Origin: Neoarius graeffei
Taxonomy: Eukaryota > Chordata > Actinopteri > Siluriformes > Ariidae
Direction of reading: 5' to 3'
Assembly: GCF_027579695.1 (NCBI RefSeq)
Contig: NC_083579.1
Span: 71,595,371 to 71,659,370, forward strand
Length of the DNA: 64,000 nt
Shown: positions 31,658 through 56,404 of the stretch, one piece after another
How positions within the stretch are numbered: the first letter of the stretch is position 1
Layout of the letters: each line of letters starts with the position of its first letter
Notes under the pieces: generated by a model
The model's input: only the letters and a program-made list of their open reading frames with translations
Told to the model about the DNA's origin: nothing
Databases searched by the model: none
Translations under genes and position numbers: made by a program

Positions 31658-32093
31658 TGAATGCATCATATATGAATACATATTGAATTTATGAACATTA
31701 GTTAATTCAGTTCTTGATTATTTGGCTTATCTGGTTAATTTAAAAGAACAAATTATTAATTGCTTTGTTAATGTTACTTCAGGCATATGTATGTTTAGGT
31801 TCGTGGTTTGTTGTATACTAACTAATCTGCTAAATGATGTCAGCAAAAAGAAAATTATATTGTATGGTAAGAAATATAAAACAAACATAGTTACATAGTA
31901 TAGTTGTACAGCAATACAGAACATATTAGCATGCACTATAACTTTTATCCTGAGCTATAACAATTGCATTAATGCGTTAAAGTCACATCAATTAAAGCGG
32001 TATGTAATTTTAATCATATACAATAGTGAATAATTCTGTAATTTGTGACAGTGCTTGACAGTTTTATTTATAAGCATATTGGTTGAATATTAT
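31658..32093. other. AT-rich sequence downstream of Cbeta3 tail exon
   Basis: This would be the 3' untranslated region and flank of Cbeta3 if the exon at 32094-32147 is right. I saw no coding feature. Confidence 0.35.
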
Positions 32094-32147: not shown

Positions 32148-33383
32148 CTGCAGGGAAAATACGCATCTTTAAATAAATACCAAAATCTAAACAATTTGCG
32201 ACAGCTGTTTTATTTCTTGTAAGGGTTATATTACATCATGCTACTTAATAACTCATTTATGGATATTCTATAAACATTCATACATTAATTATACATAAAA
32301 TATATTATAGTATAAATATAAGTATTAATTAAGTGTATTAATTATTAATTACATGTTTGGTCAAAACACACTACAGTCAATATGAACACATCCATTAAAA
32401 GGTAGCTATATGGTAGGCTATATGTGCAGCTAATATAGTTATATAATACACTGCTTGGCCAAAAAAAAAAAAAGTCACCATTTGGATTCAAATAAACAAA
32501 TAATTAAGAGCCTTTGATTGGATAATTGCTGCAGTGATTAATGTTTTTCAGCTGGCAACAATTCTTTTAACCCAAATTGATGCAGTGAGTAGCTTCTCAT
32601 TTCTTAAACAAACATGTCAGAATACGTATCCCGTGGTCATGGAAAATATATTACTGTGTTTCAGAAGAGTCAAATTATTGGCCTGCGTCAAGCAAAGACA
32701 ACAACTAAGGAGATTACTGAAATGACTGGAATTGGGTTAAGAACTGTCCAATGCATTATTAAAACCTGGAAGAATAGTGGTGAAATGTAAAATTTGTAGA
32801 AGAAATGTCATCGGAAAACAACAACAACAACAACAACAAAAAAACCTTGATTGACGATGATTGGAAATCACTTTAATATTTGGTGAAGTCAAACTGTAAA
32901 AAAAAAATCGGCAGTAGAATTCACATCTATGTTTAAAAGTGAAATTAAGAACATTTCCACACTCACAATGTGACAAAAACTCACAGGCTTGGGACTAAAC
33001 AGCTGTGTGTCCAGAAGAAAACCACTTATTAGTGAGACTAATCAGGAGAAAAGGATTCAGTTTGCTGGGGAGCATAAAGATTGGACTGTGAAGCAATGGA
33101 AAAAGAGTCATGCGGTTTGATGAGTCCAGATTGACCCTATTCCTTAGTGATGGGTGTGTCAAGGTAAGAAGGGAAGCACATGAAGCGATGCATCCATCAT
33201 ACATAGTGGCCACTGTACAAGCCTCTGGAGGCAGTGCTATTTTATATCTGGGGTTACTTCAGTTGGTTATTTTGAGGCTCAGCAAAGTTATGGGGCAATA
33301 AAATGAAGTCCGCTGACAACCTGAATGTACTGAATGACCAGGTTATCATCACATCAATGGACTTTTTCTTCCATGATGGCACA

Positions 33384-34207
33384 CAGGGCACCATTAGGGG
33401 GGTAGTTAGGACAATTCTAAGGACCCAGCATTGACAGAGGGCCCTCAGAAGATAATGTTAACATTATTACCATGTGTAAGTTAAATTAATAAAAAAAATA
33501 ATAATAATTTTGTCTCTTAAAATAAGCAAATACAACAACCTTCTGGTTTGGTTCCCATCCACCTATCCATTATCTGTAGCCACGTATCCTGTTCTGCAGG
33601 GTCACAGGCAAGCTGAAGCCTATCCCAGCTGACCATGGGCGAGAGGGGGGGAACACCCTGGACAAGTTGCCAGGTTATCTCAGGGCTGACACAGAGACAA
33701 ACAACCATTCACACTCACATTCACACTTATGGTCAATTTAGAGCCACCAATTAACCTAACCTGCATGTCTTTGGGGGAAACCCACACAGACACAGGGAGA
33801 ACATGCAAACTTTACACAGAAAGGCCCTCACCAGCCGCTGGGCTCGAACCCAGGACCTTCTTGCTGTGAGGTGACAGTGCTAACCACTACACCACCGTAC
33901 CGCCCAGTTTGGTTCCCATTTTCCACAAAATTATTAGAATAGATAGTCTTTATATTTCACCCCTGTCCCTATTCATTACATGGTACAGTCTTGTGTAGGC
34001 GGAGCCAGAACGTGACACCGTGTTAGGTTTGTTGCTTTCCAATCCAGCACTAACGGTAGCTGCGTAGAAGCAGAATTGATAGTGAACCATCAATAGATTG
34101 ACACCATCATGACGAAGTCGGGTTACTTGAAATGTAAAAGGGGTGTGTGGGGGGGGGGGGGGTATTATATTCTTTTATAGGGCCCAAAATTTCTAGCAGC
34201 GCCCCTG
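33384..34207. mobile_element. non-autonomous hAT-like element
   Basis: Left end CAGGGCACCATTAGGGGGG and the complement of the right end CAGGGGCGCTGCTAGAAAT suit a CAG-terminated hAT element. The Tc1 sequence (ATGATGGCAC / ACACGGGCAT) resumes on each side. A poly-G run lies near 34150. It carries a SINE. Confidence 0.6.
33559..33906 (-). repeat. tRNA-derived SINE nested in hAT in Tc1
   Basis: The SINE lies on minus with a perfect 13-bp target duplication GTTTGGTTCCCAT at 33546-33558 and 33907-33919. Confidence 0.9.
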
Positions 34208-34600
34208 ATAACACGGGCATAAAATCAGGGCTCAAATTGTGAAATAGTGGTTCATGGAGCATGAGGAATCATTTTCACACATGAATTGGCCACCTGACCT
34301 TAACCCCATTGAAAGTCTTTGGGATGTGCTGGAGAAGGCTTTATGGAGTGAGTCGACTCAGCAGTTGTCAAGACAACATCTTGGCGAAGGCTTAACACAA
34401 TTCTGGATGGAAATAAATATTGTGACATTACATAAGGTTGTCGAAACAATGCCATGCTGAATGCGCACCATCATCAAAGCTAAAGGTGATCCAACAAAAT
34501 ATTAGAGTGTGAGACAATTTTTTTTTTTTTTGGCCTGGCAGTGTATGAAAGATATAATATACAGACTACATTGTGTTGGTGACATCATGTCGTGTTGTAC

Positions 34601-34698
34601 CTTGCATTTCCATATGAAAAAGCTGACAAACCCAGCATACAGCAGACTCTTGATAATAACCGTCCAGTAACCAAGTTGTATTGTGAGATACACTCGTA
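34601..34698 (-). CDS. Cbeta3 exon 3 (transmembrane)
   Basis: On minus, acceptor GATTTTAG precedes a 98-bp exon ending at donor AAG/GTACAA. In the phase set by exon 2 it codes VRVYLTIQLGYW, then TVIIKSLLYAGFVSFFIWKCK. The lysine inside the hydrophobic stretch is the hallmark of TCR beta transmembrane helices, where it pairs with acidic residues of CD3. There is no cysteine before the membrane segment. It lies 125 bp after exon 2, and the next intron is swollen by transposons. Confidence 0.82.
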
Positions 34699-34823
34699 CT
34701 AAAATCATGGATAGTCAAATATTAGTTTAATTAGCTACACATCTATATAAATGCTACTTTTCTCTTTAACATACATTCATAATATAAACTATGAAAATAT
34801 CCCTGATATTCATTTCAACTCAC

Positions 34824-34835
34824 CTGGTATTTTGA
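34824..34835 (-). CDS. Cbeta3 exon 2 (12-bp micro-exon)
   Basis: Minus reads TTTTTCAG/TCAAAATACCAG/GTGAGT: good acceptor and donor around only 12 bases. It is in phase 1 on both sides, adding VKIP between the Ig domain and the membrane exon. The second exon of mammalian TRBC and of Cbeta1 here is 18 bp, so a tiny exon is expected at this place. Confidence 0.65.
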
Positions 34836-35371
34836 CTGAAAAACAAACAAAGCAAAAAAATTTAAATTAATTCATCTCACACTGGACCAAGTATTTTTAA
34901 AGAACCATAAATATGGGTTCTCTACTCTATGTCTGTGGTGCTGCAGGTCTTCAGTTTTCCCCTGGACATGTTATTACTGCCCGAACACAACTGAATCAAC
35001 ATCACAAAAGGGGATGAGTTTATGGTGTTAAGGGAAACAGAACACGTCCTTACCGATTGGGGTGCCATTTTTTCTCATTAAAGAAATGCATGTAAAGTAA
35101 AGGTAAAAGACATGTGAACGTAGGTAGTACTATCCTACTTTTTGATAAACACAAATCAGACTTTATTTTCTGAAGATCACGGGAAGAAGAAAAGTATGTT
35201 CTCTCATCTTGATTTGAAAGTATAACCCCGTTACCAAGTTTATTAACTGAAAGTAAATTATTAATTACTTTATGTTTGTATGTGATTAGCATGGATACTA
35301 GTTTGACACATTTTATACATTTGCTAATTCTTTGCTAAAAAATTAAACCTTTTTCTCATTTAAGATCAAAA
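34836..35371. other. Cbeta3 intron 1 (outside the duplicated unit)
   Basis: Intronic sequence of Cbeta3 with no exon recognised between the duplication edge at 35372 and exon 2. Confidence 0.5.
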
Positions 35372-35625
35372 TACAGTCAATTATCAGCAAAGGAACTTGA
35401 ATAAAAAAAGAGGCACTGTTGCATGAGATGCCTTTTTTTTAATGGTTTAATGAATGGTTTTCTTGGATTAAAAAAAAAGAAGATAAAAATACAGTTTAAA
35501 ATTTAAACCTTACAAGTTCAAAATGGCAGCCCAATCATGGAATCATCATGTGCTTCTGAAATTGAGAACCATGATCTTGACGTCGAGGGTTATGTTCATT
35601 TTGTGTATATGTTTGTGCGTTTTAC

Positions 35626-35982
35626 CTGGTGAAAATGTGATGGTGTCTTCAAGCACCACGTACTCGTCTTCCTTGTAGAAAGCAACGCTGCACTTGAATT
35701 TGTTTTTGATGTTGGTCCACTCAGTTTCATTGACTCTCAGTCTGCTGGACATGCTGTAGAGCCTTGTGTCTGGATCTTGTAGGGCTGCATGGTCTGTCGC
35801 AACACGATGCGTTCTATTTTCCCCATTCACTTTCCAAACAATGCTAATGTGATCTGGATAAAAATCTGTCACTAAGCACACCAAAGTTACAAAGCCTTTT
35901 TTTTTTTTCTGGGCTTCGCAGAGCTCTACCGGAGAAGGTGGCATCAACTTTATTTCTGGCTCAGATATGTTCATGTTGGGAT
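35626..35982 (-). CDS. Cbeta3 exon 1 (TCR beta constant Ig domain)
   Basis: Minus reads acceptor TTCTAAG, then 357 bp in phase 1 to phase 1, donor CACCAG/GTAAAA. It codes DPNMNISEPEIKLMPPSP, VTLVCLVTDFYPDHISIVWK and KFKCSVAFYKEDEY: a C-type Ig domain with both cysteines and the tryptophan, and the FYPDH motif usual in fish C-beta. It is identical to the exon at 42293-42649. Read through past the donor, it would add GKTHKHIHKMNITL and a further 12 residues before a stop. It pairs with exons at 34835-34824 and 34698-34601. It is clearly different in sequence from Cbeta1. Confidence 0.93.
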
Positions 35983-36551
35983 CTTAGAAGAAAATGAAAA
36001 GAATTTCAGGGGAAAATGTCATTATGAATGTCATCAGTGACATTTAAAAAATATATATTATTTGCCAGTCATTGTAAATGTGTGAAAGGTTGCTCAGAAA
36101 TAATCACATGAAAGATTATTTCAAAATATTATTTCACATAAAATGCATGGAATGATGAATGATTTTGATTTTAAATAGATTTTCACTGCCATTTTATCTT
36201 GCTTTTTTATCAGGTGTTTTGTAAACTACATTAGAACTGCATGATGTGCTTGAAATCATGTATTATACACTAAATATCATTAGGAAGCACATTTAATTAT
36301 TACACCCTTTTTCAATTCTCATCAGATTTTAATATTTTTAAGTACTGTCATGATATGCTAATTTTCCTCATAGTTATCAGGTTTTTTATATATTTATTTT
36401 TGAACCTTGGTAACAATTTACTATGAAGTCCAAAACTAAGCAATGTATTAAGACTTAACTCATTTGTTCATAATGATGAATGAATACATGCACTAATCCT
36501 TAGCACATCCGGAAATCTTGATGTGCTTATATTAACAGGCTCCGAGTCATA

Positions 36552-37780
36552 CAGTCCCCTCCAAAAGTATTGGAATAGCAAGGCCTGTTCTGATATTTTT
36601 GCTATACACTGAAGACATTTGGCTTGAAATCAAAATATGAATATAAGACGATAGATTAGAATTTCAGCTTCCCTTTCCTGATATTAACAGGAATGTACAT
36701 ATATTAAACAAATTAGATCATGGCATCTTTTGTTTGAATCCACCCATTTTTCAAGTGATCAGAATTATTGGAACACATGACTGACATGTGTTTCTTGTTG
36801 CCCAGGTGTGGCCTACGCCTCTTGGTTTTGGTTTTCATCAATGCAGACTGCATTTATTGTTTAAAAAAATGAAGACCCGAGAGCTTTCTATGCGATACAC
36901 GCAAGCCATTTTAAAGCTGCGAAAAGAGGGAAAATCATTCAGAGCTATTGGAAAAGCATTGGGCAAAGCCAATACAACAATTTGGAATGGCCTGAAAAAG
37001 AAGCCACTGGTTTCTACTGGTTTCACATTGAACATGTTGGCCAAGGAAACAACAGCAGTTGATGACAGAAATATTATGAAATATAGGTCAAGCATGGTGG
37101 AGGTACGGTAATATCATGGCTTGGGCTTGCATGGGTGCTTCTGGAATGGGCTCACTAATTTTTATTGATGATGGAACTCATGAAGGTAGCAGCAGAATTA
37201 ATTAAAAAGCCTACAGAGACATTCCTGCTGCCAATTTACAGAGAAATGCTTGAAATCTAATTGGGAGGAACTTCAAAACAAGTGGAAGGTTTTAGACTAG
37301 CCAAGTCAAACACCAGACCTTAACCCAACTGAGCATGGATTTGACTTCCTGAAGAGGAGACTGAAGGAAGAAACCCCACAAAACAAACAACAACTGAAAG
37401 AATCTGTGGTTGACCTCTGAAAAAAAAAATCACAAAAGAAGAATGCAACAGTTTGGTGATATCAGTGGGTCATTGGCTAGATCCAGTTATTGCAAACAAG
37501 GGATATGCAGCCAAATAATGAAGTGTTATTTATTTAAAGTTACTAAGACTAGGTGTTCCAATACTTTTGCTCACCCAAAAATGGAGTGGTCTGCTAACAA
37601 AGGTATCATGTTCGAATTGTTTAACACATCTAGATGTAAATATCAGGGAAAAAAAACCCCTGACATTCAGATGTATCTTTTGTCTGATATTTATCTTTTG
37701 AGCTTGAACCCAAATGTTTGCATGGTACAGCAAAAACAAAAGAACTGGCCTTGCTGTTCCAATAATTTCGGAGGGGACTG
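36552..37780 (+). mobile_element. Tc1-like element (unit copy B)
   Basis: Terminus CAGTCCCCTCCAAAAGTATT after TA pairs with CGGAGGGGACTG at the right. It includes the transposase N-terminal helix-turn-helix remnant TRELSMRYTQAILKLRKEGK. It is non-coding otherwise. Copied at 43219-44447. Confidence 0.75.
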
Positions 37781-37829
37781 ATGAATATGAATATTGTACC
37801 TTATTCTGTTAATTAGTATTAACTCCTGA

Positions 37830-37978
37830 TAGATACATATCAGACAAAAGATACATCTGAATGTTAGATTTTTTTCTCCTGATATTTACATCTAGATGTG
37901 TTAAACAATTAGAACATGACACCTTTGGTAGCAGACCACTCAATTTTTAGGTGAACAAAAGTATTGGAACATCTCGGC
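37830..37978 (-). repeat. inverted fragment of the adjacent Tc1 element
   Basis: Sequence such as ACATCTAGATGTGTTAAACA followed by TGGTAGCAGACCACTC is the complement of 37560-37700 in the neighbouring element. This shows a second, partial and inverted copy. Copied at about 44497-44645. Confidence 0.6.
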
Positions 37979-38692
37979 AAAGTTTGAGACCCTTGATATC
38001 AAAACAATTTGTTAGTGGTGTTGGTTTCAAATTCTGAATTGTTTCAAGTTACTTAAACAACCTTAGGGTTTGGTTAATCTACACTGTGCACAAAAAAAGA
38101 CAATGTAAATAATCTTTATTAATGCTGCATAGGTAATTTTAATTAGTGGAATGAGTTCACAAGATATTACCATTATTAATGGCTATTCATATATGACTCA
38201 GCTGTTAATGTGAACACTTAATTTTTTCCTGATGGGCTAAAGATTAGTGCATGGATTAATTTGTCATATTTTTAAGTTATATCCATATAATTCTTGGTGA
38301 AGTATTAATATATTACTTATTTGTGGACCTTAAGCAATATCATATAGTATAGTAACTCACTGTGTTACCGAATGCTTTTTGGTTGGAGTAAAGTAAGAAC
38401 ATTTAAAAAGGTGATTTAAAACTATCTTGACAATTACAAAATTCAGGGCTACATAATTGTTAATTAGCTAAATTCTTAATGATAATAGCCGAAGAAAACA
38501 AGGTTAAATCTATGAATCTAAATTGTACTCTACGTAGAACTTCCAAACTTTAACTGTATGCTTGAATAGATAATTTTGTTGGTTAAAAACGAGACTTGTA
38601 ATGACTTGTAGCATCTAGTTGATTAGTAAAAGTGAGTACTTGTAAAATGATCACTGAGTGTTATAATAATAACAACACAATATGTAACTTAC

Positions 38693-38745
38693 CCAAGACT
38701 GTTAGTTTGGTCCCTGATCCAAATTCCAGTTTTGCATAACCAGTA
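38693..38745 (-). CDS. Jbeta3-2
   Basis: Codes TGYAKLEFGSGTKLTVLG with donor TTGG/GTAAGT. The 12-RSS follows on plus: CACGTTG (38746-38752), a 12-bp spacer, ACAGAAACT. It is the J segment nearest to Cbeta3 exon 1. Confidence 0.9.
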
Positions 38746-39258
38746 CACGTTGATTTAACTCATGACAGAAACTAAACTTGCAGAAATAAGCTTTATTGGG
38801 GTTTTGCTATCTCATTAATAAAATTACCATTAAATCACCAAATAATTCTGTCACTGCAAACTTGATATGATTGTAAACAGTATAAAGGTGTATTTTGCAA
38901 ACTATATAGTACAGTAACTGACGTTTAGCAGTGGATTGTAACTGCATCGCTGAAAACTAGTTTTCCAAGAGAGTTATAAAAGCTGTGTGGCATGTTTCCC
39001 GAGTTGTATAAGTGAAATATCATTTAGATTTATGTGAGAGAATGTTATTGAGGAAGTCATGAAAATTCAATGTTATTCCATGAAGCTATAAAATGAACAC
39101 AAAACATAGTTGAGATTATTGAATAGCCAATCAAACTGACTTCGTGCACTATAATTATGACTATGCCGAGGTAAATGCTTTTAGTAATGGAATAAAAGAG
39201 AACAATGAAGAACCCAATGATAATCCTTTTAGGTTTTTTTTTAAAGCAACTTACTCAC

Positions 39259-39309
39259 CTCGAACTGTTAATTTTGTCCCAGGTCCAAATTTCAAGTCGG
39301 TGAGGCTGA
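39259..39309 (-). CDS. Jbeta3-1
   Basis: Codes SLTDLKFGPGTKLTVRG with donor CGAG/GTGAGT. RSS: CACACTT (39310-39316), a 12-bp spacer, ACATAAACT. Confidence 0.88.
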
Positions 39310-39337
39310 CACACTTACACAAGGCCTGACATAAACT

Positions 39338-40041
39338 GCAGCAGCGTAAAGGCACTGATGGCTATCAGCGTTTGAGGCCCCTCATCTATTAGAAACTGGA
39401 AAAGACAAAGCTTTCCTCTGTACAACCTAAGAGGGGCCTCTCATAACCTCCAGAACTCTGCAGTATCTGCTAGGTCTGATTTGTTTGTTGGGAATGTTTG
39501 CTGGAATCATTTTCATTTTTAAATAAGCCCTCTCTGGGAATTATCGCGTTATTTATGATTAGCATGATTAGTCTGGGATTAGTTGGGTTGCTAGCTGGGA
39601 TGTTGTTTGTCAGCCATTGCTGCTGCCTCCAAAAAAAGTCACAGGATCTTCAGATGTTAATAATCGAATAAAATATAAACATGGATTTTAGACATGTAAT
39701 ATACTTCACCACCGGGGAACTGTCAGGGCCTTCTAGGTGTTCAGAGAAGGCCCAAGCATATCAGCATTCAAATGTTATATTTAATTTTTTTCATTCTTTA
39801 ATTGCTTTCATTCTTTTATAATTTCATTATAATTATTCTCTTCTAATTCTAATTTGGCCTCATTTTCTATCAAATTTGCTTCAGAAATGAAAGCGTTACT
39901 GTCCTGAAAACATTAAAATCGAGTTATCCAATGAGATTGTTTTGTTTGTTGTCTCCAGGCTGAGAAGAGTTTAGAGCTGCTCACTCATTGGTTAGGACTT
40001 CATTGCCGGGACAGAAGGCCATGGCAGTGTATGTTTATGTA
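39338..40041. other. no recognised feature (unit copy B)
   Basis: No J, D or repeat family is recognised between Jbeta3-1 and the first MITE. I looked specifically for a D segment with paired RSSs and did not find one. Confidence 0.4.
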
Positions 40042-40569
40042 CACTACCGTTTAAAAGTTTGGGGTCACCCAGACAATTTTGTGTTTTCCATGAAAAGTCA
40101 CACTTTTATTTACCACCATAAGTTGTAAAATGAATAGAAAATATAATCAAGACATTTTTCTGGCCATTTTGAGCATTTAATCGACCCCACAAATGTGATG
40201 CTCCAGAAACTCAATCTGCTCAAAGGAAGGTCAGTTTTATAGCTTCTCTAAAGAGCTCAACTGTTTTCAGCTGTGCCAACATGATTGTACAAGGGTTTTC
40301 TAATCATCCATTAGCCTTCTGAGGCAATGAGCAAACACATTGTACCATTAGAACACTGGAGTGATAGTTGCTGGAAATGGGCCTCTATACACCTATGGAG
40401 ATATTGCACCAAAAACCACACATTTGCAGCTAGAATAGTCATTTACCACATTAGCAATGTATAGAGTGGATTTCTGATTAGTTTAAAGTGATCTTCATTG
40501 AAAAGAACAGTGCTTTTCTTTCAAAAATAAGGACATTTCAAAGTGACCCCAAACTTTTGAACGGTAGTG
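40042..40569 (+). mobile_element. 528-bp Tc1/mariner MITE (first of inverted pair, copy B)
   Basis: It begins CACTACCGTTTAAAAGTTTG and ends CAAACTTTTGAACGGTAGTG between TA dinucleotides. It has no coding capacity. An opposite-facing copy of equal length follows at 40871-41398. Confidence 0.85.
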
Positions 40570-40870
40570 TAGGAAGTGACAGATGAATTCAGCAATCAGA
40601 TACTGATTTATAGTAGGAGGGACCAAAAATTGATCTCCCTCAGCCTTCTCGAAGGCCAACATGAGCTTAACCGTGAGTCGGTGCTGTCAGTGTAGCAGTG
40701 AAGTCACCTTCCAGCCAGTGTAGCGTTCATCAGTAGTGTTAGCGAATGCTAATAAAGCGATCAAGCCAGTGCTATCGAGAGCAAGTAGCACAGGCTAACG
40801 GCTGAGAAACTAAGATTTCTGTCTCCAGACTCTTCTTCCATGCTGCTCGCAATAGTATTTTTCACTCATA

Positions 40871-41398
40871 CACTACCGTTCAAAAGTTTGGGGTCACTTT
40901 GAAATGTCCTTATTTTTGAAAGAAAAGCACTGTTCTTTTCAATGAAGATCACTTTAAACTAATCAGAAATCCACTCTATACATTGCTAATGTGGTAAATG
41001 ACTATTCTAGCTGCAAATGTCTGGTTTTTGGTGCAATATCTCCATAGGTGTATAGAGGCCCATTTCCAGCAACTCTCACTCCAGTGTTCTAATGGTACAA
41101 TGTGTTTGCTCATTGCCTCAGAAGGCTAATGGATGATTAGAAAACCCTTGTACAATCATGTTAGCACAGCTGAAAACAGTTGAGCTCTTTAGAGAAGCTA
41201 TAAAACTGACCTTCCTTTCAGCAGATTGAGTTTCTGGAGCATCACATTTGTGGGGTCGATTAAATGCTCAAAATGGCCAGAAAAATGTCTTGACTATATT
41301 TTCTATTCATTTTACAACTTATGGTGGTAAATAAAAGTGTGACTTTTCATGGAAAACACAAAATTGTCTGGGTGACCCCAAACTTTTGAACGGTAGCG
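40871..41398 (-). mobile_element. 528-bp Tc1/mariner MITE (second of inverted pair, copy B)
   Basis: This is the same family as 40042-40569 in reverse orientation, also flanked by TA. The two arms enclose 301 bp. Confidence 0.85.
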
Positions 41399-42292
41399 TA
41401 CTTAAGTATTCATTTCCCTGTGTAATTTACTGAGTTACTTTTAAAATCAGCATCGACAGCTACACACAACGGAGCGACTTGGCAGCCTGCCGCTAATCCC
41501 CTGCAAAATCCTTTGCCCTGTTGCTTTTTTGGTGTCTGGCTAAATTTTGGCTGAACTCAAGTCCCAGTTCGCCACTGTATTTCACACATTTTTATGTGGA
41601 CCTTTCACATGTAGTGCATGTGCTTTTTATTTTTCCAGATATGTATTTTTGTATATGATTCACTTATATTCACATTTTAATCTTTCATATGTTGGACGCA
41701 GGCCATCGCAAGGCCGTCACCTTGCTACCTAAGAGTTTAGAGCAGAATTCCACATGTTCTCCATGTGCATATGTGGGTTTCCTTGGTTTTCTCAGATTTT
41801 GTCCTACTATCAATAAACATGCAAGTAAGTGGATTGGCTATGATAAATTGCCCCAGGTATGAATATGTGCATGTACTGTAAATGGTGCCCTGTGATGTCC
41901 TGACATCTCCTTCTGGCAGAAATCTCCCTCCTTGCTCTCAGTGTTACTGGGCTTGGCTCAGAATTCACTGACTCTGAGCAGGACAAAACACTTCCTGGAC
42001 ATAAATGATGAAGATAATTTAGGACACGTTGTTTTATTTACAGTCAATTATCAGCAAAGGAACTTGAATAAAAAAAGAGGCACTGTTGCATGAGATGCCT
42101 TTTTTTTAATGGTTTAATGAATGGTTTTCTTGGATTAAAAAAAAAGAAGATAAAAATACAGTTTAAAATTTAAACCTTACAAGTTCAAAATGGCAGCCCA
42201 ATCATGGAATCATCATGTGCTTCTGAAATTGAGAACCATGATCTTGACGTCGAGGGTTATGTTCATTTTGTGTATATGTTTGTGCGTTTTAC

Positions 42293-42649
42293 CTGGTGAA
42301 AATGTGATGGTGTCTTCAAGCACCACGTACTCGTCTTCCTTGTAGAAAGCAACGCTGCACTTGAATTTGTTTTTGATGTTGGTCCACTCAGTTTCATTGA
42401 CTCTCAGTCTGCTGGACATGCTGTAGAGCCTTGTGTCTGGATCTTGTAGGGCTGCATGGTCTGTCGCAACACGATGCGTTCTATTTTCCCCATTCACTTT
42501 CCAAACAATGCTAATGTGATCTGGATAAAAATCTGTCACTAAGCACACCAAAGTTACAAAGCCTTTTTTTTTTTTCTGGGCTTCGCAGAGCTCTACCGGA
42601 GAAGGTGGCATCAACTTTATTTCTGGCTCAGATATGTTCATGTTGGGAT
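42293..42649 (-). CDS. Cbeta2 exon 1 (orphan constant-domain exon)
   Basis: Identical in coding sequence to Cbeta3 exon 1: DPNMNISEPEIKLMPPSP onward, 357 bp, phase 1 at both ends, intact splice sites. The duplication did not include exons 2-4. A membrane receptor using this exon must splice about 7.5 kb on to Cbeta3 exon 2 (34835), skipping or including Cbeta3 exon 1, both of which keep frame. Otherwise, read-through gives a 26-residue tail and a domain with no membrane anchor. Confidence 0.9.
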
Positions 42650-43218
42650 CTTAGAAGAAAATGAAAAGAATTTCAGGGGAAAATGTCATTATGAATGTCA
42701 TCAGTGACATTTAAAAAATATATATTATTTGCCAGTCATTGTAAATGTGTGAAAGGTTGCTCAGAAATAATCACATGAAAGATTATTTCAAAATATTATT
42801 TCACATAAAATGCATGGAATGATGAATGATTTTGATTTTAAATAGATTTTCACTGCCATTTTATCTTGCTTTTTTATCAGGTGTTTTGTAAACTACATTA
42901 GAACTGCATGATGTGCTTGAAATCATGTATTATACACTAAATATCATTAGGAAGCACATTTAATTATTACACCCTTTTTCAATTCTCATCAGATTTTAAT
43001 ATTTTTAAGTACTGTCATGATATGCTAATTTTCCTCATAGTTATCAGGTTTTTTATATATTTATTTTTGAACCTTGGTAACAATTTACTATGAAGTCCAA
43101 AACTAAGCAATGTATTAAGACTTAACTCATTTGTTCATAATGATGAATGAATACATGCACTAATCCTTAGCACATCCGGAAATCTTGATGTGCTTATATT
43201 AACAGGCTCCGAGTCATA

Positions 43219-44447
43219 CAGTCCCCTCCAAAAGTATTGGAATAGCAAGGCCTGTTCTGATATTTTTGCTATACACTGAAGACATTTGGCTTGAAATCAA
43301 AATATGAATATAAGACGATAGATTAGAATTTCAGCTTCCCTTTCCTGATATTAACAGGAATGTACATATATTAAACAAATTAGATCATGGCATCTTTTGT
43401 TTGAATCCACCCATTTTTCAAGTGATCAGAATTATTGGAACACATGACTGACATGTGTTTCTTGTTGCCCAGGTGTGGCCTACGCCTCTTGGTTTTGGTT
43501 TTCATCAATGCAGACTGCATTTATTGTTTAAAAAAATGAAGACCCGAGAGCTTTCTATGCGATACACGCAAGCCATTTTAAAGCTGCGAAAAGAGGGAAA
43601 ATCATTCAGAGCTATTGGAAAAGCATTGGGCAAAGCCAATACAACAATTTGGAATGGCCTGAAAAAGAAGCCACTGGTTTCTACTGGTTTCACATTGAAC
43701 ATGTTGGCCAAGGAAACAACAGCAGTTGATGACAGAAATATTATGAAATATAGGTCAAGCATGGTGGAGGTACGGTAATATCATGGCTTGGGCTTGCATG
43801 GGTGCTTCTGGAATGGGCTCACTAATTTTTATTGATGATGGAACTCATGAAGGTAGCAGCAGAATTAATTAAAAAGCCTACAGAGACATTCCTGCTGCCA
43901 ATTTACAGAGAAATGCTTGAAATCTAATTGGGAGGAACTTCAAAACAAGTGGAAGGTTTTAGACTAGCCAAGTCAAACACCAGACCTTAACCCAACTGAG
44001 CATGGATTTGACTTCCTGAAGAGGAGACTGAAGGAAGAAACCCCACAAAACAAACAACAACTGAAAGAATCTGTGGTTGACCTCTGAAAAAAAAAATCAC
44101 AAAAGAAGAATGCAACAGTTTGGTGATATCAGTGGGTCATTGGCTAGATCCAGTTATTGCAAACAAGGGATATGCAGCCAAATAATGAAGTGTTATTTAT
44201 TTAAAGTTACTAAGACTAGGTGTTCCAATACTTTTGCTCACCCAAAAATGGAGTGGTCTGCTAACAAAGGTATCATGTTCGAATTGTTTAACACATCTAG
44301 ATGTAAATATCAGGGAAAAAAAACCCCTGACATTCAGATGTATCTTTTGTCTGATATTTATCTTTTGAGCTTGAACCCAAATGTTTGCATGGTACAGCAA
44401 AAACAAAAGAACTGGCCTTGCTGTTCCAATAATTTCGGAGGGGACTG
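43219..44447 (+). mobile_element. Tc1-like element (unit copy A)
   Basis: Duplicate of 36552-37780, carried within the 6,667-bp unit. Same termini and same transposase remnant. Confidence 0.75.
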
Positions 44448-45359
44448 ATGAATATGAATATTGTACCTTATTCTGTTAATTAGTATTAACTCCTGATAGA
44501 TACATATCAGACAAAAGATACATCTGAATGTTAGATTTTTTTCTCCTGATATTTACATCTAGATGTGTTAAACAATTAGAACATGACACCTTTGGTAGCA
44601 GACCACTCAATTTTTAGGTGAACAAAAGTATTGGAACATCTCGGCAAAGTTTGAGACCCTTGATATCAAAACAATTTGTTAGTGGTGTTGGTTTCAAATT
44701 CTGAATTGTTTCAAGTTACTTAAACAACCTTAGGGTTTGGTTAATCTACACTGTGCACAAAAAAAGACAATGTAAATAATCTTTATTAATGCTGCATAGG
44801 TAATTTTAATTAGTGGAATGAGTTCACAAGATATTACCATTATTAATGGCTATTCATATATGACTCAGCTGTTAATGTGAACACTTAATTTTTTCCTGAT
44901 GGGCTAAAGATTAGTGCATGGATTAATTTGTCATATTTTTAAGTTATATCCATATAATTCTTGGTGAAGTATTAATATATTACTTATTTGTGGACCTTAA
45001 GCAATATCATATAGTATAGTAACTCACTGTGTTACCGAATGCTTTTTGGTTGGAGTAAAGTAAGAACATTTAAAAAGGTGATTTAAAACTATCTTGACAA
45101 TTACAAAATTCAGGGCTACATAATTGTTAATTAGCTAAATTCTTAATGATAATAGCCGAAGAAAACAAGGTTAAATCTATGAATCTAAATTGTACTCTAC
45201 GTAGAACTTCCAAACTTTAACTGTATGCTTGAATAGATAATTTTGTTGGTTAAAAACGAGACTTGTAATGACTTGTAGCATCTAGTTGATTAGTAAAAGT
45301 GAGTACTTGTAAAATGATCACTGAGTGTTATAATAATAACAACACAATATGTAACTTAC

Positions 45360-45412
45360 CCAAGACTGTTAGTTTGGTCCCTGATCCAAATTCCAGTTTT
45401 GCATAACCAGTA
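45360..45412 (-). CDS. Jbeta2-2
   Basis: Duplicate of Jbeta3-2 (TGYAKLEFGSGTKLTVLG) with the same 12-RSS (heptamer CACGTTG at 45413-45419). It lies 5' of Cbeta2 exon 1. Confidence 0.9.
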
Positions 45413-45925
45413 CACGTTGATTTAACTCATGACAGAAACTAAACTTGCAGAAATAAGCTTTATTGGGGTTTTGCTATCTCATTAATAAAATTACCATTAA
45501 ATCACCAAATAATTCTGTCACTGCAAACTTGATATGATTGTAAACAGTATAAAGGTGTATTTTGCAAACTATATAGTACAGTAACTGACGTTTAGCAGTG
45601 GATTGTAACTGCATCGCTGAAAACTAGTTTTCCAAGAGAGTTATAAAAGCTGTGTGGCATGTTTCCCGAGTTGTATAAGTGAAATATCATTTAGATTTAT
45701 GTGAGAGAATGTTATTGAGGAAGTCATGAAAATTCAATGTTATTCCATGAAGCTATAAAATGAACACAAAACATAGTTGAGATTATTGAATAGCCAATCA
45801 AACTGACTTCGTGCACTATAATTATGACTATGCCGAGGTAAATGCTTTTAGTAATGGAATAAAAGAGAACAATGAAGAACCCAATGATAATCCTTTTAGG
45901 TTTTTTTTTAAAGCAACTTACTCAC

Positions 45926-45976
45926 CTCGAACTGTTAATTTTGTCCCAGGTCCAAATTTCAAGTCGGTGAGGCTGA
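45926..45976 (-). CDS. Jbeta2-1
   Basis: Duplicate of Jbeta3-1 (SLTDLKFGPGTKLTVRG) with RSS heptamer CACACTT at 45977-45983. Confidence 0.88.
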
Positions 45977-46708
45977 CACACTTACACAAGGCCTGACATA
46001 AACTGCAGCAGCGTAAAGGCACTGATGGCTATCAGCGTTTGAGGCCCCTCATCTATTAGAAACTGGAAAAGACAAAGCTTTCCTCTGTACAACCTAAGAG
46101 GGGCCTCTCATAACCTCCAGAACTCTGCAGTATCTGCTAGGTCTGATTTGTTTGTTGGGAATGTTTGCTGGAATCATTTTCATTTTTAAATAAGCCCTCT
46201 CTGGGAATTATCGCGTTATTTATGATTAGCATGATTAGTCTGGGATTAGTTGGGTTGCTAGCTGGGATGTTGTTTGTCAGCCATTGCTGCTGCCTCCAAA
46301 AAAAGTCACAGGATCTTCAGATGTTAATAATCGAATAAAATATAAACATGGATTTTAGACATGTAATATACTTCACCACCGGGGAACTGTCAGGGCCTTC
46401 TAGGTGTTCAGAGAAGGCCCAAGCATATCAGCATTCAAATGTTATATTTAATTTTTTTCATTCTTTAATTGCTTTCATTCTTTTATAATTTCATTATAAT
46501 TATTCTCTTCTAATTCTAATTTGGCCTCATTTTCTATCAAATTTGCTTCAGAAATGAAAGCGTTACTGTCCTGAAAACATTAAAATCGAGTTATCCAATG
46601 AGATTGTTTTGTTTGTTGTCTCCAGGCTGAGAAGAGTTTAGAGCTGCTCACTCATTGGTTAGGACTTCATTGCCGGGACAGAAGGCCATGGCAGTGTATG
46701 TTTATGTA

Positions 46709-47236
46709 CACTACCGTTTAAAAGTTTGGGGTCACCCAGACAATTTTGTGTTTTCCATGAAAAGTCACACTTTTATTTACCACCATAAGTTGTAAAATGA
46801 ATAGAAAATATAATCAAGACATTTTTCTGGCCATTTTGAGCATTTAATCGACCCCACAAATGTGATGCTCCAGAAACTCAATCTGCTCAAAGGAAGGTCA
46901 GTTTTATAGCTTCTCTAAAGAGCTCAACTGTTTTCAGCTGTGCCAACATGATTGTACAAGGGTTTTCTAATCATCCATTAGCCTTCTGAGGCAATGAGCA
47001 AACACATTGTACCATTAGAACACTGGAGTGATAGTTGCTGGAAATGGGCCTCTATACACCTATGGAGATATTGCACCAAAAACCACACATTTGCAGCTAG
47101 AATAGTCATTTACCACATTAGCAATGTATAGAGTGGATTTCTGATTAGTTTAAAGTGATCTTCATTGAAAAGAACAGTGCTTTTCTTTCAAAAATAAGGA
47201 CATTTCAAAGTGACCCCAAACTTTTGAACGGTAGTG
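46709..47236 (+). mobile_element. 528-bp MITE (first of inverted pair, copy A)
   Basis: Duplicate of 40042-40569 within the tandem unit, flanked by TA. Confidence 0.85.
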
Positions 47237-47537
47237 TAGGAAGTGACAGATGAATTCAGCAATCAGATACTGATTTATAGTAGGAGGGACCAAAAATTGA
47301 TCTCCCTCAGCCTTCTCGAAGGCCAACATGAGCTTAACCGTGAGTCGGTGCTGTCAGTGTAGCAGTGAAGTCACCTTCCAGCCAGTGTAGCGTTCATCAG
47401 TAGTGTTAGCGAATGCTAATAAAGCGATCAAGCCAGTGCTATCGAGAGCAAGTAGCACAGGCTAACGGCTGAGAAACTAAGATTTCTGTCTCCAGACTCT
47501 TCTTCCATGCTGCTCGCAATAGTATTTTTCACTCATA

Positions 47538-48065
47538 CACTACCGTTCAAAAGTTTGGGGTCACTTTGAAATGTCCTTATTTTTGAAAGAAAAGCACTGT
47601 TCTTTTCAATGAAGATCACTTTAAACTAATCAGAAATCCACTCTATACATTGCTAATGTGGTAAATGACTATTCTAGCTGCAAATGTCTGGTTTTTGGTG
47701 CAATATCTCCATAGGTGTATAGAGGCCCATTTCCAGCAACTCTCACTCCAGTGTTCTAATGGTACAATGTGTTTGCTCATTGCCTCAGAAGGCTAATGGA
47801 TGATTAGAAAACCCTTGTACAATCATGTTAGCACAGCTGAAAACAGTTGAGCTCTTTAGAGAAGCTATAAAACTGACCTTCCTTTCAGCAGATTGAGTTT
47901 CTGGAGCATCACATTTGTGGGGTCGATTAAATGCTCAAAATGGCCAGAAAAATGTCTTGACTATATTTTCTATTCATTTTACAACTTATGGTGGTAAATA
48001 AAAGTGTGACTTTTCATGGAAAACACAAAATTGTCTGGGTGACCCCAAACTTTTGAACGGTAGTG
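47538..48065 (-). mobile_element. 528-bp MITE (second of inverted pair, copy A)
   Basis: Duplicate of 40871-41398. Its terminal CGGTAGTG differs by one base from CGGTAGCG in copy B, the only unit difference I noticed. Confidence 0.85.
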
Positions 48066-48707
48066 TACTTAAGTATTCATTTCCCTGTGTAATTTACTGA
48101 GTTACTTTTAAAATCAGCATCGACAGCTACACACAACGGAGCGACTTGGCAGCCTGCCGCTAATCCCCTGCAAAATCCTTTGCCCTGTTGCTTTTTTGGT
48201 GTCTGGCTAAATTTTGGCTGAACTCAAGTCCCAGTTCGCCACTGTATTTCACACATTTTTATGTGGACCTTTCACATGTAGTGCATGTGCTTTTTATTTT
48301 TCCAGATATGTATTTTTGTATATGATTCACTTATATTCACATTTTAATCTTTCATATGTTGGACGCAGGCCATCGCAAGGCCGTCACCTTGCTACCTAAG
48401 AGTTTAGAGCAGAATTCCACATGTTCTCCATGTGCATATGTGGGTTTCCTTGGTTTTCTCAGATTTTGTCCTACTATCAATAAACATGCAAGTAAGTGGA
48501 TTGGCTATGATAAATTGCCCCAGGTATGAATATGTGCATGTACTGTAAATGGTGCCCTGTGATGTCCTGACATCTCCTTCTGGCAGAAATCTCCCTCCTT
48601 GCTCTCAGTGTTACTGGGCTTGGCTCAGAATTCACTGACTCTGAGCAGGACAAAACACTTCCTGGACATAAATGATGAAGATAATTTAGGACACGTTGTT
48701 TTATTTA

Positions 48708-49033
48708 TCTCGTGTGTTTACTTGAATTCACATGTGCAATTTCAGGCCGTAACACGTTGAAATGCACAGTCGCATGTTTTTCAAATGTGACCACACATGA
48801 CTCACATAATCGCATGTGAAAATCATCGGATCACGTGTATGTGAAATGTACGTGAATAAAGTTGCAAACATCCTTCAGCAATATTTTTCATGCCATGAAC
48901 GAACATACATTTTGTTTTAATACCAAAATCATCATTATACTGAAGCATTACAGGCAAGCTTGAATGATGTGTACAGTCATTAAAAAATGCAAAAGATTCT
49001 TGTTTTAAACATCAAGTGAAAGAACAAGTGCTG

Positions 49034-49111
<78 letters not shown>

Positions 49112-49336
49112 TCATAAAATATGTACAGTATAAATTTTGTTAAACCAAACTGAAGACAACAGTAAGATAAATAAAGTAGGGCAGAATTAGCAAAGCGCTT
49201 GAAAATAATCATGCTTTTAAATACACAGCTCATGTCTGAACTAGCTGTTAGCATATTCATATAAACTCTTCCTCTTCCTCTGTCACATGACCACATGGCT
49301 GTTCTCCATCATCAGACTCCATCAGTTTCATTGCCT
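48708..49336. other. Cbeta1 3' untranslated region and flank with microsatellite
   Basis: Downstream of the Cbeta1 stop. About 49037-49110 is a poly-A run joined to (TA)n. Around 48720-48850 short CACATG/CATGTG motifs recur in both orientations, suggesting an old MITE. A TTTATT (AATAAA on minus) lies near 48702, at the far end. Confidence 0.4.
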
Positions 49337-49791
49337 TTACTTTGAAATAAAACCCTGTGCAACAGAAAATTACACTTTTATAAAACTATTGCTCTCAATT
49401 TAAGCAGTTAAAAGTAATTGCAGTACAGAGCCTTCATGTAATAGGTGGACAGTAACATTGTAAATACAACAGCACTGAAGGAGGTCTTTACCTGTTTCTT
49501 AATGATGACCAGGATGAAAAAGCCGTATGCAAAACTTTTGGCAATGAACATGCCATAGGCTAGCATAGTTGTTTTCACTGTTCGAGCATATCTTTCTAAA
49601 ATCAGACAAAAGAGAAAACAATCGAACTGTAAATTGAATTGTTTCAAAAATATTCAAACGAATGCGTGTATTTAAATAAAGGTATTTAAAGTGTATTTGA
49701 AGTTTCATTTATGTATTGCGATGAAGGATCTTACCGGCATTATCCTCATCACCTGCAACTGCGGGGGGAGGTTTTGAACACATTAGTGTTT

Positions 49792-49843
<52 letters not shown>

Positions 49844-50187
49844 CCTACTTTTAGGTCCTACTATACTGTCGGAATAGATTTCGTACTTTTCTGTCTCGTT
49901 AAAGAATCTGACAAGACATGTAAAGGTTTTGCCTTTGGTCCACTCTTTGTAAAAGATGTTCAGTCTGCTGGAGATGCTGTAGAACTTATTATCATGTTGT
50001 ATGGGAGCACTGTCTGTACTAACATCAGTGGTACGTTGTTCTCCATCAATTTCCCAGGACACAGTCACATGGTCAGGGTAAAAATCTTCAGCCACACATA
50101 CCAATGTGACATTTTCTTTTGTACACACTTCACTCTTAGAGACATTTAGCACCCGGACAGTTGGTGGTGTGATATCAATGGCTGGAT
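49337..50187 (-). CDS. T-cell receptor beta constant gene Cbeta1, four exons
   Basis: Exon 1 (50187-49849, 339 bp) codes DPAIDITPPTVRVLNVSK, NVTLVCVAEDFYPDHVTVSW and TFTCLVRFFNETEKYEI: a complete C-type Ig domain. Exon 2 (49752-49735) is 18 bp and codes SDEDNA. Exon 3 (49595-49492, 104 bp) codes ERYARTVKTTMLAYG, then MFIAKSFAYGFFILVIIKKQ, a membrane helix with the conserved lysine. Exon 4 starts at 49354 and codes GFISK then stop (49339-49337). All splice sites are GT-AG and phases agree (1, 1, 0). The gene is compact, with introns of 96, 139 and 137 bp. There is no connecting-peptide cysteine. It is the constant gene served by the 30-member J cluster; the product is the constant part of the membrane TCR beta chain. 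Confidence 0.93.
49795..49842. repeat. (AAT)n microsatellite in Cbeta1 intron 1
   Basis: About 16 ATT units (on minus) begin within seven bases of the exon 1 donor and fill half of the 96-bp intron. Read through, they would code a run of tyrosines. Confidence 0.9.
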
Positions 50188-50679
50188 CTGAAAACAGAAG
50201 AAAAGGAACATTTGTGATTATCAGTGTAAATGGCTTAATAATTAAGAAAAGGTTATTACAAGGGATTCATCAAATTATTACTCACACCTCATAGTTTTTT
50301 TTTTAAAAGGAACTCTTTATTTTAAGTAACTGAATGATATTGTATAACCAAGAGACGAATGTATAAAATATTCCCTTTTATCTATGTTTTTCCAAACCCA
50401 AGTGTTTTGGAAATGTAAATCATTTTCACCCAGGTTGTCAATGTAAGGTTAGGTTAACCTTTTTACACTAATATCTTAAGTATTCATGCTCATTCTTTGC
50501 AATATTTATGTATTTAATAAATCACATGCCCAAAATTCGCCAACAGCAAAGACTATACTGACCACACTGTCTGCAATTTAAGGTAGAAATATTCTAAGGT
50601 CCTTTTGCCATTTCATTCTTAAGCTTCAAGCTTGACAATTTTTTTCCCCAAATAATACACCTATTATGAGACTGTAATT
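50188..50679. other. J1-Cbeta1 intron, no recognised feature
   Basis: Intronic sequence between the J1 cluster and Cbeta1, AT-rich, no repeat family recognised in this part. Confidence 0.4.
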
Positions 50680-53598: not shown

Positions 53599-53647
53599 CG
53601 AGAACAGTGAGCTTGGTCCCCTGGCCAAAGTATGCAGGCTGGTTGTT
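53599..53647 (-). CDS. Jbeta1-30
   Basis: Codes NNQPAYFGQGTKLTVLG; donor CTCG/GTAAGG. RSS on plus: CACACTG (53648-53654), a 12-bp spacer, AGTAAAACA. It is the J1 segment nearest Cbeta1 and close in sequence to Jbeta1-23. Confidence 0.93.
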
Positions 53648-54112
53648 CACACTGAATTTCAGTAAGAGTAAAACAATCTGCAGCTCCTCGGCTTGAAAGA
53701 AGCCTATCTGATCCAGCTAGACTATAATTTAAATCCTTGCGTTCTTTAAAATACCATACTAAAACAAATTTGTCTACCATGCACTTTTATGCACTTTCAA
53801 ACTGAAGAAAACTGTCAAAGATGCAACATAAATGTAAACATAACTCTAAAAACATGTCCTAGTAAATAATAACTTGCCAGATCATTTGGAAGGCCTAAAG
53901 TGCCTCATTTAATTTAATGAATCATTCTAGTATCAAGAACGAGATCTATTCAAAAATTGATAGATTTTCGAATCAACAAGTATGAATTTTGAGCTGAGGT
54001 TTAAGGAACTGCCTTCAAGAGTAAATATAAAAATTCAATAAAATAAAGGTAAGCAAAACGTCCACTTATGAATCTGAACATGAGCAAACTCAATGAATTT
54101 AGTAACTCTTAC

Positions 54113-54164
54113 CTAAAACGGTGAGTCTAGTACCAGGACCAAACACAGCTTTTTCACCATAGCC
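54113..54164 (-). CDS. Jbeta1-29
   Basis: Codes GYGEKAVFGPGTRLTVLG; donor TTAG/GTAAGA. RSS heptamer CACAGAG (54165-54171), 12-bp spacer. It is unusual in having Val-Phe rather than Ala-Tyr-Phe and Arg in GTRLTV. Confidence 0.88.
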
Positions 54165-54345
54165 CACAGAGTTCAATCCATCCACATCAATGCTTTTATC
54201 AACATACTATACTGTATCTTTACTCACAAAATGACCAATTCCAAGATATTCATTACTCAGGGAATGCTGTAAAAGTTAGTGTGAAGGTAATAACAAAAAC
54301 CAATGTTGAAAGGTATTTTTTTTTAAAGAGTAGTGAATTTCTCAC

Positions 54346-54397
54346 CTCTCACTGTGAGTTTGGTCCCACTGCCAAAGTATAGTGGGTTGTTGGAGTT
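54346..54397 (-). CDS. Jbeta1-28
   Basis: Codes NSNNPLYFGSGTKLTVRG; donor AGAG/GTGAGA. RSS heptamer CACACTG (54398-54404). A close duplicate of Jbeta1-27, including the spacer ATATCACGCTAT. Confidence 0.92.
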
Positions 54398-54517
54398 CAC
54401 ACTGATATCACGCTATAGAGAAAACCTGTACTACTCTCAAGGTCTGCTACACACCAGCAATCAAGCAATCACACCAGTAAAAGGTACAATTTTTTAAAGG
54501 AGTAGTGAATTTCTCAC

Positions 54518-54569
54518 CTCTCACTGTGAGTTTGGTGCCGCTGCCAAAGTATGCTGGGCTGTTGTAGTT
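54518..54569 (-). CDS. Jbeta1-27
   Basis: Codes NYNSPAYFGSGTKLTVRG; donor AGAG/GTGAGA. RSS heptamer CACACTG (54570-54576), same spacer as Jbeta1-28, 172 bp away. Confidence 0.92.
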
Positions 54570-54866
54570 CACACTGATATCACGCTATAGAGGAAACCTG
54601 TACTACTATCAAAGTCTGCTACACACCAGCAATCAAGATTTTGAAGGGTATTTTAAAGCAAATCTACTCTACTTCGAGCAATACAGTTAAGCGTGGAGCA
54701 AAAAATATTTGCACTGGAGCTGTAACGGACTGTTTTGCATCAGATCTATAAAGATTTATAGATTTATCACATGGAGTTACAAACCAATATCAAATAGTTA
54801 TCACCAGAACAGTTAGCATATTAAATAGTGATTGCAGGATATGATTAGTAGCATGAAATTTCTTAC

Positions 54867-54920
54867 CAAGGACTGTTAACTTGGTCCCTCCACCAAAATA
54901 AGCTGGAAGGCTCCCAGAGG
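54867..54920 (-). CDS. Jbeta1-26
   Basis: Codes SGSLPAYFGGGTKLTVLG; donor CTTG/GTAAGA. RSS heptamer CACAGCA (54921-54927). Belongs to the SG-x-x-AYFGGG group with Jbeta1-15, -17 and -19. Confidence 0.92.
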
Positions 54921-55210
54921 CACAGCATACACTAATAGCTCACTATCGAAATCAACCGAGTATCATACTCCAAATAGTCCATGCAATCTATTATCTGCCT
55001 GTTGTTGAATTATTTAGTGCATCATCATGCCCTTAACATGTCTATAATGCCCATGTTATCAGTTCTATCCAAAAGGAGACCAGACTGTCTTTATTGTTAT
55101 GTTTCAGCTAAATAGACATGAATATACATTACATTAAAATGTAAATTAAATACATAATCCCTTTCAGGAAACCTCAGAAAGGTTTAAACCACCAAATCAA
55201 ACTTTCTCAC

Positions 55211-55262
55211 CTCTGACTGTGAGTTTAGTTCCACCACCAAAGTACACTTGATTGGAGCCTGT
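55211..55262 (-). CDS. Jbeta1-25
   Basis: Codes GSNQVYFGGGTKLTVRG; donor AGAG/GTGAGA. RSS CACATTG (55263-55269), 12-bp spacer, nonamer TGAAAAACC. Confidence 0.92.
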
Positions 55263-55387
55263 CACATTGACACTAAGCAACTGAAAAACCCTCAATCTTT
55301 GTGCAAAACTAATACAGCTCTGCTATTACACAATGATGATTTTTAGAGGATTGTAAGAAATTATCTTCAAGATTTGGTTTTCCTTAC

Positions 55388-55437
55388 CTAAAACGGTGAG
55401 TTTGGTGCCTGCTCCAAAATATGCTTGCAAACCAGAG
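55388..55437 (-). CDS. Jbeta1-24
   Basis: Codes GLQAYFGAGTKLTVLG; donor TTAG/GTAAGG. RSS heptamer CACAGAG (55438-55444); the nonamer (ATCTTTAAC) is poor. Confidence 0.88.
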
Positions 55438-55582
55438 CACAGAGTTTCAAACCTGTATCTTTAACACCTAGACTTCGCTTAGCATTTTTTTTTAGCCATT
55501 TACATCAAACAAGTGATGCATTTCTTTCACACCTAAAGCTGTATTAGCTCAGGACATTTATCGACAGATTTAGTAGTTCTTA

Positions 55583-55602
55583 CCAAGAATGCTAAGTCGA
55601 CA
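55583..55602 (-). pseudogene. J-segment 3' remnant
   Basis: Minus reads CTTAGCATTCTTG/GTAAGA, the last few J codons with an intact donor, but no FGxG core or RSS lies upstream. It is a truncated J relic beside Jbeta1-23. Confidence 0.5.
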
Positions 55603-55639
55603 TTAAACTGCTTAACCTGAATAAAACACGTAAGCTTAC

Positions 55640-55688
55640 CGAGAACCGTGAGTTTGGTCCCCTGGCCGAAGTATGCAGGTTGAGTGTT
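55640..55688 (-). CDS. Jbeta1-23
   Basis: Codes NTQPAYFGQGTKLTVLG; donor CTCG/GTAAGC. RSS CACACTG (55689-55695), 12-bp spacer, nonamer ATTAAAACA. Confidence 0.93.
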
Positions 55689-55982
55689 CACACTGAACAG
55701 CAGTAAGATTAAAACAGCCTGCAGCACTTAGGCTTACATGGATGCTCACATTGAAATCTTTACATTGCACTTTTAATTGCAAATTTTCTCAAGAACCTTT
55801 ACTATAATGTTTCTCATGCACGCCGATTGACTCTTTTAAGAGGTGAAAAAACCCTTCATACAGTAATCATGATTAGAAATATATACGAGTTCATCTAAAA
55901 ATGCAAACTGTTCACATTGCTTTAGGCCTTCGTATACACCTCACAAATAAATATTAATCATACGAAAATCATATTTTCTCAC

Positions 55983-56034
55983 CTCTAACCGTGAGTTTAG
56001 TTCCACTGCCAAAGTATGCAGGATCTGTCGTTGT
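55983..56034 (-). CDS. Jbeta1-22
   Basis: Codes TTTDPAYFGSGTKLTVRG; donor AGAG/GTGAGA. RSS CACACTG (56035-56041), spacer ACACTGAGCTAC, nonamer TGAAAAACC. Confidence 0.93.
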
Positions 56035-56188
56035 CACACTGACACTGAGCTACTGAAAAACCTCCACTCTTTTTGCGCAAAATGAATGTGAATCTCACTG
56101 AAGCTCTGCTATTATGCAGTACAGTAATAATGGCAACATTTCTATGTTCTTAAGAAGATATACAGTACAGATATGCATTTTTTCTTAC

Positions 56189-56238
56189 CTAAAACGGTGA
56201 GTTTAGTGCCTGCTCCAAAATATGCTTGCGTTGTAGAG
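56189..56238 (-). CDS. Jbeta1-21
   Basis: Codes TTQAYFGAGTKLTVLG; donor TTAG/GTAAGA. RSS heptamer CACAGAG (56239-56245). Duplicate type of Jbeta1-24 and -12. Confidence 0.9.
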
Positions 56239-56404
56239 CACAGAGTTTCAAAGCTGTATCTTTAACATCTACACTTCAGCTTAGAGAATTACCCTCGATA
56301 TTTCAGTATTGTTTACAGTATCAGACGTTTACAGTACATTAAAACAAGCACAGTGTAAGCAGATTGAGTTTAGTGAATCTATAGAGCAAGTTTATGTTTC
56401 TTAC

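Follow-up and report, generated by a model that had tools for sequence, protein, structure and literature searches.

We identified, in the T-cell receptor beta (TRB) locus of the catfish Neoarius graeffei, a 6,667-bp segment that stands twice in tandem and carries in each copy two TRBJ2 joining segments and the first exon of the TRBC2 constant gene. The arrangement probably represents a very recent germline duplication of TRBJ2-TRBJ2-TRBC2 exon 1 that left out the connecting and membrane exons and is itself probably polymorphic. The window analyzed is the 64,000-nucleotide stretch of contig NC_083579.1 from position 71,595,371 to 71,659,370 (forward strand; assembly GCF_027579695.1), and coordinates below are those of the window unless a contig is named. 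An offset identity profile aligned positions 35372–42040 with 42039–48707, 6,667 bp apart along the whole length, and yielded one mismatch and no gaps over 6,669 positions, a base-by-base result that bears out the single difference reported in a preliminary description of this DNA. The sole mismatch is a C at position 41397 (plus strand) facing a T at 48064. Just beyond both ends of the match, identity drops to background in the same profile, and self-BLAST of the surrounding 264 kb recovered the pair at 99.985% identity. Both methods place unit 1 at 35372–42038, with a TA overlap running to 42040, and unit 2 at 42039–48707, ending in the same overlap; neither unit is assigned a strand. The 2-bp overlap is common to the breakpoints and accounts for the two extra matched positions. 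The novel junction between the units is captured by a 27-mer (42028–42054, plus strand) that occurs only once in the window when up to three mismatches are allowed. The count of undetermined bases (N) is zero in the window and in the 264 kb, and there is therefore no gap at the junction.

The content of the units was recovered as first described: each contains both TRBJ2 segments and TRBC2 exon 1, whereas the candidate connecting and membrane exons lie outside. The D, J, and C elements of this TRB locus are all on the minus strand. The exon-1 copy in unit 2 (42293–42649) is 357 nt long with phase 1-1 boundaries and encodes a C1-set domain (Pfam, E = 5.9e-17); the copy in unit 1 (35626–35982) is identical to it. 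The 60 matches listed from the PDB for this exon are mostly T-cell receptor beta chains, the top match being an IgA1 heavy chain. The two TRBJ2 segments encode FGPGTKLTVR (45926–45976 in unit 2 and 39259–39309 in unit 1) and FGSGTKLTVL (45360–45412 and 38693–38745). They have open frames, FGXG motifs, and donor sites, and their recombination signals score 4 against the consensus motifs, compared with 3–7 among the 29 segments of the TRBJ1 array. The TRBJ2 segments therefore bear no visible mark of dead segments. From the end of exon 1 (35626), the unit extends a further 254 bp to 35372, not the 400 bp given previously. A 701-bp probe (42000–42700) matched three places in the 2.34-Gb genome (38 contigs), every one within the two units. 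A search with the exon-1 protein (88 matches; best 150 of 231 candidates scored) returned two matches at 100% and TRBC1 at 45% identity; among those best 150 of 231, the remaining matches, on other contigs, were at most 39% identical with E values of 7.5e-5 or worse. Neither the genome probe nor the best 150 of 231 protein candidates contained a third copy of TRBC2 exon 1 or an alternative contig carrying it.

The preliminary description regarded the exon in unit 2 as stranded from any transmembrane exon, a view that the splice phase does not sustain. Exon 1 is symmetric (357 nt, phase 1-1), and the unit-2 copy is therefore not cut off from the shared candidate membrane exons: the donor at 42293 can reach 34835–34601. 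These candidates, a 12-nt connecting micro-exon encoding VKIP (34824–34835, minus strand) and a transmembrane exon (34601–34698, minus strand), were read by eye from their splice signals and phase. The candidate transmembrane exon aligns to the TRBC1 membrane exon without gaps over 30 residues, a score matched by 6 of 2,000 shuffles. A reading-frame check found the joined frames J-C-e2-e3 and J-C-C-e2-e3 both open. The predicted intron to the second exon-1 copy measures 6,310 nt; skipping that copy would give one of 7,457 nt. The membrane-exon scan recovered the transmembrane exon of TRBC1 and also reported two hydrophobic frame groups further left of the unit (31819–31954 and 32925–33037). 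The lone hydrophobic candidate exon inside the unit (39101–39177) was rejected, as it contains stops in the phase given by exon 1.

How the doubled arrangement would be expressed can be laid out from these signals. A V-D join to the upstream J2 pair would remove TRBC1 and keep both copies of exon 1, and the resulting transcript would be spliced to the copy beginning at 42649. From there, the donor at 42293 could join the second exon-1 copy (35982) to give a V-Cβ-Cβ-transmembrane chain, or it could skip that copy and join 34835 to give an ordinary Cβ2 chain. A V-D join to the downstream J2 pair would delete the J segments and exon 1 of unit 2, and a normal chain would follow. Inclusion of both exon-1 copies is the simple expectation because the splice signals of the two are identical. 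It is nevertheless doubtful that, in a naturally occurring TRB allele, the upstream J2 pair gives rise by default inclusion to a beta chain with two tandem Cβ2 domains.

The breakpoints share only TA, as first noted, and this overlap was then taken to point to a microhomology join. Base composition gives a chance probability of 0.17 for an overlap of at least 2 bp, and 20,000 breakpoint pairs drawn at random in the window give 0.27; one the size of TA is so frequent that it carries little information on the repair route, and we discarded microhomology as a clue to mechanism. The breakpoints have no homology beyond TA, and an origin by unequal crossing over between repeats located there is likewise unsupported. 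Dispersed, diverged repeats flank the right breakpoint on both sides (48450–48949; best 40 of 283 candidates scored), and alignment of the right-breakpoint repeat with five other copies gave nothing decisive. The divergence between units, 1 in 6,669 positions, amounts to 1.5e-4 (95% interval 3.8e-6 to 8.4e-4). Under an assumed substitution rate of 5e-9 per site per year, the duplication would be about 15,000 years old, with bounds of roughly 400 to 84,000 years. Each unit also contains a transposon-like inverted-repeat element (40020–41420 and 46687–48087) with 555-bp arms that are 97% identical and a 291-bp spacer, and the only difference between the units sits near the end of one of its arms. 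The pattern of this transposon end was searched in 264 kb plus a further 50 kb; all eight matches fall within the two units. The C at 41397 in unit 1 is probably the derived state, or else a base error, because seven of the eight matches carry T.

Several points weigh against a real duplication expressed in this way. The duplication and its splicing are both read from the sequence of one assembly. The TRBC2 membrane candidate was missed by the automatic scan, because its hydropathy of 1.59 falls below the cut-off of 1.7, and was picked out by eye instead. The TRBC1 and TRBC2 membrane peptides have no PDB sequence match up to an E value of 10, and a terminal TRBC2 exon was not located at the locus. 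Finally, a second near-identical tandem pair of 6.3 kb lies ~76 kb beyond the first and could point to a habit of the whole assembly, and the 50-kb control region against which the locus was set covers much too little sequence to yield a base rate for fresh tandem copies.

The choice between a very young change in TRB architecture and an assembly error, posed at the outset, is still the right one. In an artefact, one real unit would have been written twice, either as two haplotypes placed in tandem or as an under-collapsed or chimeric-read copy. False duplications of this kind are documented in vertebrate assemblies (PMC9516828), and the near-total identity of the units agrees with such an origin. 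Three arguments tell against it. First, the junction has no gap, whereas a gap between copies is listed, in the part of that study available to us, as a mark of false duplication within one scaffold (PMC9516828). Second, an origin from two haplotypes requires a local heterozygosity of no more than ~8e-4 (1 in 6,669; 95% upper bound), and the differences are too few for two ordinary haplotypes. Third, the copies overlap by only 2 bp at the junction, so that an overlap-based assembler would presumably have needed a read carrying that junction. We therefore consider an artefact unlikely, although it must be taken seriously. The real duplication is supported by identity that runs to both breakpoints, by the gapless junction, and by the lack of a repeat pair at the breakpoints beyond TA. 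It is further favored by the lack of another copy among the genome and protein matches scored, the agreement with a published catfish locus that has a single J2-J2-C2 set, the TRBJ13-TRBJ14 duplication that varies between individual catfish (PMC8656973), the open joined frames with one or two C domains, and the J2 signal scores.

The second tandem pair occupies 124600–130918 and 130915–137217 on the window's numbering (contig positions 71719970–71732587), in the V region. It shows one mismatch at the extreme edge of the alignment, no internal substitutions, and 26 gapped bases in three simple repeats. Its unit begins inside a V-like exon, so that the V in its second copy is truncated on one side. 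The other 37 self-BLAST rows of at least 1 kb in the 264 kb, in which some inverted pairs are listed twice, range from 95.0 to 98.4% identity. In the 50-kb control, pairs longer than 300 bp and above 95% identity comprise a minisatellite with a 50-bp period and a single inverted pair of 373 bp. The presence of two fresh pairs amid older ones may be due to continued duplication at the locus, as described for catfish T-cell receptor (TR) loci (PMC8656973), or to an assembly that duplicates sequence.

A real but older duplication could also have been held identical by gene conversion. A parallel in its favor is found in trout and salmon, whose duplicated TRB loci on the same chromosome encode near-identical constant-gene products (PMC10464911); in the text accessible to us, the authors of that study ascribe the likeness to minimal divergence after duplication and not to conversion (PMC10464911). 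Here, identity continues through introns and transposon-like DNA without a break until each breakpoint is reached, and no unconverted edge remains, which makes conversion very improbable. Slightly less probable still is that the duplication is as we propose and the upstream copy gives rise to a chain that is soluble or cut short. The junction contains an AATAAA (42033–42038, minus strand), a copy of the motif at 48700–48705 downstream of TRBC1, that might act as a premature polyadenylation signal 255 nt past the donor at 42293, and the frame of the retained intron is open for 26 extra residues before a stop. A motif of this kind arises within 255 nt by chance with a probability of ~0.24 for AATAAA and 0.38 for AATAAA or ATTAAA, and ATTAAA sites follow exon 1 in both units too. 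Counted jointly with this polyadenylation variant, a recent real germline duplication is likely, a little more so than the favored reading taken singly. An event driven by RAG or by recombination signals, whether germline or somatic, is scarcely credible even at a locus on which V(D)J recombination acts, as no CAC or GTG lies flush with either breakpoint within the 2-bp ambiguity and the J signals closest to the outer breakpoints lie ~2.7 kb and 3.3 kb away from them.

The surrounding locus reads, from right to left, as TRBD, 29 J segments, TRBC1, unit 2, unit 1, and the candidate TRBC2 connecting and membrane exons. TRBD (GGGACAGGGGGC, 62188–62199, minus strand) is flanked by recombination signal sequences with a 12-bp spacer (62200–62227) and a 23-bp spacer (62149–62187), and is the single D place above the scan threshold in the window. 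The TRBJ1 array (53599–61801, minus strand) accounts for 29 of the 33 J segments found by the J scan. Within 60104–61605, a 343-bp tandem repeat multiplies J segments, and the array is growing via small tandem duplications. TRBC1 comprises a 339-nt exon 1 (49849–50187) and a transmembrane exon (49492–49595), both on the minus strand. V-like exons are found on the plus strand leftward, in the window and the next 100 kb, and on the minus strand rightward; the latter share merely 23–33% identity with the four query V sequences. The left 100 kb (contig positions 71495371–71595370) holds 28 plus-strand V-like places, of which four or more are fragmentary or broken, and four more plus-strand places lie in the window between 10900 and 27950, inverted relative to D-J-C. 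Elsewhere in the window, a 63-bp minisatellite (9366–10058) has repeats that are open in several frames, and no known RNA family matched positions 34000–50500 at the Rfam gathering score.

This layout shows features of an otophysan TRB locus: a TRBD with 12 and 23 signals, two J segments immediately 5′ of TRBC2 and a long J array 5′ of TRBC1, a C1-set domain like that of TCR beta, and inverted downstream V genes. Of the connecting, membrane, and cytoplasmic exons expected to follow exon 1, the first two are represented by the candidates read by eye, and the last was not located. As far as the portions of the published account at our disposal extend, the channel catfish locus (PMC8656973) has a single TRBD, 27 J segments before TRBC1, J2-1 and J2-2P before TRBC2, and, downstream of TRBC2, nine V genes and a remnant in opposite orientation. 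That account describes one TRBD in both channel catfish and zebrafish, identical in sequence to the one found here. The long J array before TRBC1, the two J2 segments before TRBC2, and the inverted downstream V genes are shared between channel catfish and N. graeffei (PMC8656973), and the V-like places on the left are an expanded inverted V array relative to the nine V genes and remnant of the channel catfish (PMC8656973). The difference lies in TRBC2: channel catfish has one set of J2-1, J2-2P, and TRBC2 (PMC8656973), whereas here the J2-J2-exon-1 set is doubled and both J2 segments are open. A single unit is likely the ancestral state, because the published catfish locus has a single J2-J2-C2 set.

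Precedents exist for parts of this arrangement: published cases include duplicated TRB cassettes (PMC10464911), a J duplication that varies between individual catfish (PMC8656973), and repeats of TRGC2 exon 2 (PMC8945572). The TRBJ13-TRBJ14 tandem duplication of catfish also falls within the J-C part of TRB and differs between individuals; in the passages we could consult, J segments alone are named and no constant exon, whereas here exon 1 is included (PMC8656973). Human TRGC2 alleles with a duplicated or triplicated exon 2 repeat an internal constant exon that stays in frame on inclusion, as would be the case here; those alleles concern exon 2 of TRG and their allelic state is shown, while N. 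graeffei repeats the whole TRB C-domain exon together with J segments (PMC8945572). The D-J-C cassette duplications of mammals and the local D-J-C duplication of chinook salmon (PMC10464911, in the part available) are a tandem gain of J and C, as here, and copy D and C genes, whereas the present unit has no D and only exon 1 of the constant gene and thus is not such a cassette. A tandem copy of TRB J segments and C exon 1 without membrane exons was not found in the literature searched, which mostly lay outside subscription journals and includes sources available only in part.

TR loci evolve via cassette duplication, and such events are mostly observed long after they took place. If the doubled unit proved to be an artefact, it would be a warning against counting fresh tandem copies in the TRB locus of this assembly as genes. 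If it is real, a young copy of J segments and the C-domain exon without membrane exons would represent an intermediate state, and it would allow a test of whether an extra C domain in the beta chain is included, skipped, or tolerated.

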